DNA of 12,625 nt, from contig NIRF01000022.1 in assembly GCA_002878375.1 (NCBI GenBank), positions 1 to 12,625 of the forward strand. Direction: 5' to 3'. A model generated the notes under the pieces. The model was not told where the DNA came from. It was given only the letters and a program-made list of their open reading frames with translations, and made no database searches. A program made the translations under genes and the position numbers. Of this stretch, positions 11,138-12,625 are shown in pieces (position 1 is the stretch's first letter; each line of letters starts with the position of its first letter). Origin of the DNA: Dictyoglomus sp. NZ13-RE01. GTDB taxonomy: Bacteria > Dictyoglomota > Dictyoglomia > Dictyoglomales > Dictyoglomaceae.

Positions 11138-11332
11138 ATGGCGGAGTGCAACTTGCAGAGTAATTTGAAGATGTGTAATTGTACCTATGAGCCATGTCCC
11201 AGAAAAGGTATTTGTTGTGAATGTTTAGCATATCACAGGAGCCATGGCGAACTACCTGCCTGTTATTTCCCAAAGGATGTAGAAAAAACATATGATAGGT
11301 CTATAAAAAGATTTGTTTCATTATATAAGTAG
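11138..11332 (+). CDS. small cysteine-rich protein (DUF6485-like)
   Basis: A 64-residue cytosolic protein of unknown function with eight cysteines (4, 13, 15, 20, 26, 27, 29, 42) and His33/His36. The pattern C-N-C-T-Y-E-P-C, then C-C-E-C-L, then L-P-A-C-Y-F-P and T-Y-D-R-S matches my recollection of the DUF6485 family found in many anaerobes. The ATG at 11138 follows GGGAGGT by six bases; an in-frame GTG at 11123 precedes that site and is unlikely. The Cys arrangement suggests binding of zinc or an iron-sulfur cluster, but this is inference. There is no signal peptide. Its neighbours are a radical SAM/SPASM gene (divergent) and a metal exporter gene (convergent). A role as a radical SAM substrate peptide is conceivable but unproven, since the family mostly occurs without such a neighbour as far as I recall. 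Confidence 0.8.
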
Positions 11333-12273: not shown

Positions 12274-12304
12274 AAATAAAAAATTCCTGCTTGTTATGCA
12301 GGAA
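12274..12304 (-). terminator. riboswitch-controlled intrinsic terminator
   Basis: On the minus strand, TTCCTGC (12304-12298 complement) and GCAGGAA close a 7-bp stem with a seven-base loop, followed by TTTTTTATTT (12283-12274). It ends seven bases before... the AGGAGG site region of the CDF gene begins at 12272, so termination here precludes exporter synthesis. Its 5' arm is the 3' strand of the aptamer's P1 helix. Confidence 0.85.
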
Positions 12305-12361
12305 GTCCCGTAAGCTATTTGCTTACTGCCAAAAAGGCCCGGCTTTTCGCCTGCTCTTCCT
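12274..12361 (-). ncRNA. NiCo (czcD-type) riboswitch with overlapping terminator, ON switch
   Basis: Read on the minus strand, the leader folds as a four-way junction. P1 pairs 12361-12356 with 12305-12300 (AGGAAG/CTTCCT). P2 is GGC-GAAAA-GCC (12351-12341). P3 is GCC-TTTTT-GGC (12338-12328). P4 is GTAAGC/GCTTAC (12326-12310). The junction strands are AGCA, GG, A and GGGA. Short helices joined by G-rich linkers ending in GGGAC resemble the NiCo aptamer, a class found before CDF exporters. Directly behind is an intrinsic terminator, TTCCTGC (12290-12284 pairing with 12304-12298), whose arm uses five of the six P1 3' bases (12304-12300). Metal-stabilised P1 would therefore block the terminator and turn the exporter on. 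The fold and overlap are seen in the sequence; the class assignment is from memory of the consensus. Confidence 0.72.
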
Positions 12362-12369
12362 TAATGGAA

Positions 12370-12427: not shown

Positions 12428-12457
12428 TTGAAAAGAAAAACCTCCCAGGGTTAGAAT
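12428..12457 (+). promoter_or_regulatory. probable transposase promoter (right copy)
   Basis: TTGAAA (12428-12433), an 18-base spacer and TAGAAT (12452-12457) predict a start near 12464. The 5' arm of the leader hairpin (12440-12452) lies in the spacer, upstream of that start. Confidence 0.5.
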
Positions 12458-12494
12458 TAGATTAGAAAGAGATAACATCCAAACCCCGGGAGGT
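12440..12494 (+). promoter_or_regulatory. transposase leader hairpin masking the ribosome binding site (right copy)
   Basis: ACCTCCCAGGG plus TT (12440-12452) can pair with AA plus CCCCGGGAGGT (12482-12494), a 13-position stem with one A-C mismatch and a 29-base loop. The 3' arm includes GGGAGGT, the ribosome binding site eight bases before the ATG at 12502. The stem is strikingly GC-rich against the AT-rich background. Confidence 0.7.
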
Positions 12495-12501
12495 GAAAAC
12501 T

Positions 12502-12625
12502 ATGGTCATTAATATTCTACCAGATTTTTCTTTAAGAAAAAAGATAAAAGAAATTTTAATTGTGTTAATAATGAGTTTAATAAAAGAGAAAAAACCATCA
12601 ATTAGAGCTCTTTCTAAAAAAGCTT
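12502..12625 (+). CDS. transposase, N-terminal fragment (continues beyond the window)
   Basis: The ATG at 12502 follows GGGAGGT (12488-12494) and opens a frame that reaches the window edge without a stop, giving the same ~41 residues as the left copy (MVINILPDF start). Only the Lys-rich N-terminus is visible, so no catalytic residues can be shown and the IS family is left open. Confidence 0.75.
   Translation, partial: MVINILPDFSLRKKIKEILIVLIMSLIKEKKPSIRALSKKA

Follow-up and report, generated by a model that had tools for sequence, protein, structure and literature searches.

A probable NiCo (czcD) riboswitch with an uncommon expression platform ahead of a CDF exporter gene in Dictyoglomus sp. 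NZ13-RE01

What governs expression of the CDF cation exporter gene near one end of contig NIRF01000022.1 of Dictyoglomus sp. NZ13-RE01, and which part of its leader RNA would be read out? We analyzed the first 12,625 nucleotides of this contig (the window), in which positions 12398-12259 of the minus strand hold, in this order, a promoter, a four-helix RNA, a terminator, a ribosome-binding site, and the start of the exporter gene, which begins 41 bases past the 3' end of helix P1. From the letters of the DNA, an original prediction had proposed that this leader is a metal riboswitch of the NiCo class. The four helices and the GG, AGCA, and GGGA linkers lie where that prediction had placed them, and we add to them the single adenine of J3/4, which it had lacked. 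The protein domains listed below likewise bear out the CDF exporter as the target. Transcription probably starts near 12363, ~7 nt past the -10 box and about two bases ahead of P1. The parts of the leader are as follows.

12398-12370 (-), promoter TTGATT-17-TATAAT, with the -35 box at 12398-12393 and the -10 box at 12375-12370; consensus scan, 10/12 matches
12361-12300 (-), aptamer, 62 nt; alignment to Rfam RF02683 and covariation
12361-12356/12305-12300 (-), P1, 6 bp; Rfam alignment and covariation
12361-12356 (-), P1 5' strand, AGGAAG; Rfam alignment and covariation
12355-12352 (-), J1/2, AGCA; Rfam NiCo alignment
12351-12349/12343-12341 (-), P2 hairpin GGC-GAAAA-GCC, 3 bp; Rfam alignment and covariation
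12340-12339 (-), J2/3, GG; with G12338 an invariant GGG in the NiCo alignment
12338-12336/12330-12328 (-), P3 hairpin GCC-UUUUU-GGC, 3 bp; Rfam alignment and covariation
12327 (-), J3/4, a single A; invariant in the NiCo alignment
12326-12321/12315-12310 (-), P4 hairpin GUAAGC-AAAUA-GCUUAC, 6 bp; Rfam alignment and covariation
12309-12306 (-), J4/1, GGGA; NiCo alignment
12305-12300 (-), P1 3' strand, CUUCCU; Rfam alignment, with 12304-12300 common to the terminator
12304-12278 (-), intrinsic terminator; stem 12304-12298/12290-12284 of 7 pairs (4 G-C), loop of 7, U6 at 12283-12278
12273-12267 (-), ribosome-binding site CAGGAGG, 7 bases ahead of the ATG; sequence
12259-11339 (-), CDF cation exporter, 306 aa; PF01545, E 6.5e-43, and PF16916, E 2.3e-19

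Beyond the promoter, the end of the window (12440-12625, plus strand) carries an inverted repeat, CCTCCCAGGGTT...AACCCCGGGAGG, whose 3' arm includes the ribosome-binding site for an open frame (MVINILPDFSLRKKIKEILIVL...) beginning near 12502 (+) and cut off by the end of the contig. To judge from these letters, the folded repeat could hide that ribosome-binding site.

Judged by its sequence, the RNA at 12361-12300 is a NiCo (czcD) aptamer that lies just under the annotation threshold. The Rfam NiCo covariance search proposed with the original prediction returned the leader at 35.3 bits (E 9.6e-7), which falls 1.7 bits short of the curated cut-off of 37, and a scan of the leader at Rfam gathering thresholds therefore comes back without a match. 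Across the whole 1.93 Mb genome, the NiCo model has a single match (E 2.4e-6), and it lies ahead of the CDF gene. A held-out model built from 16 classical NiCo RNAs, with the window RNA and all of its compact relatives (see below) left out, matches the window RNA at 44.1 bits (E 1.2e-11 in the 87 kb searched); a further model, R1, had the window RNA in its training set and its scores are not used as evidence for that RNA. In an alignment of 21 NiCo RNAs collected in this analysis, 84.1% of cells are paired, compared with 28-48% when the partners are slid, 12 pairs are altered on both sides, and the covariation score is reached by no shuffle. The four-way junction of P1-P4 is present with helices that covary across the 21 loci, C12353 of J1/2 pairs in the NiCo model with G12307 of J4/1 as a C-G pair that is invariant in them, and the window RNA keeps all conserved core bases; the fold z-score of the leader is -2.95. 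Two further features of the class are found as well, namely a position ahead of a heavy-metal exporter gene and an intrinsic terminator that overlaps the aptamer, though the strand used differs from that in classical members. Assignment to RF02683 thus has the E-value and the held-out model behind it, with the curated score not reached. A chance origin is ruled out by the held-out model, the single genome match, and the covariation. Other Rfam families scored on the leader (tfoR, OrzO-P, IS128, and HOTTIP) stay far under their cut-offs. The yybP-ykoY Mn(II) riboswitch likewise responds to metal and is built around a four-way junction (PMC6754395); the yybP-ykoY model has no match in the window leader at E-values up to 10.

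The NiCo RNAs also put the small helices into perspective. P2 and P3 do have three pairs each, as the original prediction had it, but they are not unusually short: three pairs make up the P2 core conserved in the class, a fourth P2 pair occurs in just 2 of the 21 RNAs, and we dropped this shortness as a peculiarity. What the window RNA lacks is the distal extension of P2, like other compact members. P2 is as short as in the window in two further loci, L018:1305-1363 and L024:1328-1390, from Tepidanaerobacteraceae and Clostridium thermobutyricum records; in this small sample, short P2 may be tied to warm habitats.

What sets the leader apart is the way in which the terminator engages the aptamer. 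The P1 3' strand and the terminator share exactly the five bases that had been predicted (12304-12300), so P1 and the terminator are mutually exclusive; a terminator search on the leader found one, against 0.3 expected in shuffles. Overlap as such, which the original prediction had reported, is real but is the rule of the class, and the uncommon point is which bases are shared. At each NiCo locus, we picked the best hairpin with a U-run behind it and noted which aptamer bases belong to its 5' arm. Leaving aside the closely related compact leaders, this covered 22 other NiCo loci, a sample of the class that includes some close kin (L002, L106, and L107). In 21 of them, the arm reaches into P4, with six or more bases from its 3' strand, and also draws one to four bases from J4/1, the exception being L113 with only a very weak hairpin; L018 and L024, compact P2 notwithstanding, follow this pattern too. 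For scale, 783 NiCo representatives have been counted elsewhere (PMC9481103). The window terminator arm instead consists of five P1 bases and two beyond, with zero P4 bases, and J4/1 is touched just by a weak GGA/UUU extension. Because the terminator stem lies in P1 and the two bases beyond it, the leader would, as its letters read, be read out through P1 alone. With classical NiCo RNAs of RF02683 from Clostridia and their relatives, the window RNA shares the four helices, the invariant core (GA.CAGG, CCGGGC, GCA, and GGAC), a terminator that overlaps the aptamer, and, in many of them, a CDF exporter gene downstream. It differs from them in the missing distal P2, the P1-only terminator, and the score just under the Rfam cut-off.

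Since the aptamer stands between the promoter and the CDF exporter gene and the terminator shares five P1 bases, an ON switch is our best reading, and we consider it very likely that this is a NiCo-class (czcD) metalloriboswitch that switches on the exporter under an excess of divalent transition metal. In the NiCo class, metal binding reportedly prevents formation of the overlapping terminator, giving a metal-ON terminator switch (PMC7689651, PMC7917058). The ON direction of the original prediction thereby gains support from sequence, covariation, and the known behavior of the class. In our model, the nascent RNA, started ~two bases ahead of P1, would fold first as the four-helix aptamer. In the absence of metal, the terminator hairpin would capture 12304-12300 of the P1 3' strand and transcription would end; new pairing between the P1 5' strand and the U-rich loop of P3 may assist the capture. 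When the guanines of J2/3 and J4/1 bind metal, the junction and P1 would stay closed, the terminator would not form, and the exporter would be expressed.

Folding calculations bear on this model. For RNA reaching to 12292, before the 3' arm of the terminator, the minimum-energy fold is the aptamer with P1-P4 at both 37 and 70 °C. With the 3' arm added, the balance tips to the terminator state, by a margin of 5 kcal/mol (37 °C) or about 2 kcal/mol (70-80 °C), with energies that leave out metal and magnesium; metal binding would need to offset this advantage, as a metal-ON switch requires. Prediction alone gives the re-pairing of the P1 5' strand (12361-12356) with 12336-12331 of the P3 loop in the terminator state. 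Predicted aptamer stability without metal or magnesium is marginal near 75-80 °C, and the computed P1 fraction goes from 0.000 at 37 °C to 0.047 at 80 °C. This slight rise is what could be expected of a temperature-sensing leader, in which weak P2 and P3 melt on heating and shift the balance. We give that idea hardly any credence, however, since the terminator state is preferred at every temperature tried and the metal-site core would have no role.

Which metal would a metal-ON switch of this kind sense? In the 4RUM structure, G46, G47, G87, and G88 are the ligands of Co(II) ions I and II, and G45 links to site III (PMC7689651). The junction positions 12340-12338 and 12309-12308 are all G in the window RNA; matched by conserved motifs, 12340-12338 would be the equivalents of G45-G47, and 12309 and 12308 those of G87 and G88. 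We infer from the class that the RNA binds metal and acts in the ON direction in vivo, with Ni, Co, or Fe as the metal. The identity of that metal is disputed for the class, with Ni/Co proposed from aerobic probing and Fe(II) from buffered anaerobic work and calculation (PMC7689651, PMC9434800). Under aerobic conditions, in-line probing revealed binding of Ni(II) and Co(II) and none of iron or zinc, whereas a czcD riboswitch under anaerobic conditions binds Fe(II) and Zn(II) besides Ni and Co (PMC7689651). Nested within our best reading is thus the alternative that the same switch has Fe(II) (or Zn(II)), not Ni(II)/Co(II), as its physiological ligand and guards an anaerobe from excess iron or zinc. 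In addition to the anaerobic data, metal availabilities favor Fe(II) (PMC7689651, PMC9434800), and the exporter, which aligns with FieF/YiiP (E 5e-26) and by alignment has His-Asp/His-Asp at the transport site, is closest to FieF, labeled in the PDB as a ferrous-iron or zinc/cadmium pump. Against this stands the aerobic probing, and we rate the chance of an iron or zinc ligand at a little short of even.

The window RNA has compact relatives that escape Rfam. They are NiCo-like and form the leaders of orthologous CDF genes at L246:1501-1561, L256:957-1017, L257:1501-1561, L247:1501-1561, and L253:1501-1561, in SKW194 (G064) with G533 and G534 of its phylum and in UBA4770 (G066) with G496 of its order, organisms whose names and kin point to hot habitats. 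The exporters behind them are 58-66% identical to the window exporter. Rfam NiCo gave no match on L015 and L017 at E 0.5, and at E 10 it found among the compact leaders only L247 (18.7 bits, E 8.4); the held-out model matches L256, L257, L015, L017, and L253 at E 3e-9 to 1e-4. Aligned in seven rows (the compact relatives, the window RNA, and L018), 92.9% of cells are paired, compared with at most 45% when slid, and eight pairs are altered on both sides. Length, compact P2, and a position just past the promoter are the same as in the window, whereas the first J4/1 position is A in 5/5 (G in the window) and no terminator is recognizable.

These five leaders raise the prospect of translational control in the window as well, in which an open P1 frees its 3' strand to pair with the ribosome-binding site and the main output does not come from the hairpin; CUUCC and GGAGG are able to pair, with one G-U. 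However, in the window a hairpin of 7 pairs with U6 sits between the P1 3' strand and the ribosome-binding site. We also rejected such pairing as the output of the compact relatives, in which it is predicted weakly and in L017 only. Translational control thus appears very improbable, and transcriptional readout by the terminator stays our preferred reading. For the relatives themselves, we tentatively speculate, on odds that are clearly against it, that a compact NiCo branch, overlooked by Rfam, regulates a single orthologous CDF exporter across three or more deep lineages with its output through P1 alone, and that A in place of G at J4/1, a putative metal ligand, could shift metal preference in most members. 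If so, the window RNA, which has kept the guanine, would be the natural comparison for the J4/1 A variants. Separately, L252:1500-1560 (+) holds a diverged NiCo-like leader before another CDF gene (held-out model, 23.9 bits, E 3.3e-5), in which GGGAU replaces GGGAC and which is followed by a terminator-like hairpin.

Within the Dictyoglomaceae, the aptamer was not found by Rfam NiCo or the R1 model in the six other genomes (G001-G006, of which G005 and G006 are incomplete); one R1 match in G005 (E 0.096) was discarded as its position reads as coding sequence. An orthologous exporter is present in five of these six at 66-72% identity, and none of them has the RNA; regulation by it is therefore dispensable in the family. 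A sample of 386 genomes has no bearing on absence, with so few candidates scored that the window's own RNA was missed. A plasmid search with the L022 leader gave no match, matches of a viral-contig pattern scan look like chance given too loose a pattern, and a regex scan of the loci gave several chance matches in other DNA. A small Cys-rich open frame of about 64 aa (11138-11332, plus strand) lies convergent with the CDF gene and is also found behind its orthologs in L095, L096, and L098, and this common neighbor supports common descent of the locus. NiCo-bearing relatives, too, have a CDF gene downstream. In the exporter tree, the window protein falls together with Dictyoglomaceae and GBS-1 (96/98), and the lineages surrounding this group bear NiCo; in view of this grouping and the shared neighbor, we do not favor a distant bacterium as donor of the whole locus. 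NiCo presence, as a label on the tree, needs three changes. Ancestral presence with later losses fits these data; gain of the leader alone by transfer may also explain them.

In G003 and G004 (L096 and L098; reverse strand, just ahead of the start codon), the exporter promoter leads into a hairpin, AAGCUUCC...GGAAGCUU, with a U-run and no aptamer. Because this hairpin shares CUUCC with the window P1 3' strand, it is perhaps the left-over platform of a lost riboswitch. Together with the missing RNA in all six relatives, such loci invite the view that the window leader is itself a relic, in which the aptamer fold persists without switching and the hairpin acts as a fixed attenuator. A decaying RNA should show damage in its core, however, and in the window the conserved core bases are all there, the helices are intact, and P1 and the terminator are exactly exclusive, making a relic very improbable. 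The absence from the six relatives, the score under the Rfam cut-off, and the marginal predicted aptamer stability near 75-80 °C count against a functional metal-ON switch, which we nevertheless prefer.

Altogether, the leader holds a real member of the known NiCo class that probably functions as a riboswitch and has an uncommon expression platform. Because competition is confined to P1, read-through should report P1 stability without a terminator that consumes the metal-binding guanines, making this leader a cleaner test object than classical leaders, and the compact relatives with an altered metal-site base would provide a natural variant set for metal selectivity. The sister genomes, which lack the switch and may have retained a hairpin from it, would represent a case of riboswitch decay. 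Finally, a class of metal riboswitches whose true metal is disputed now extends to the Dictyoglomaceae.
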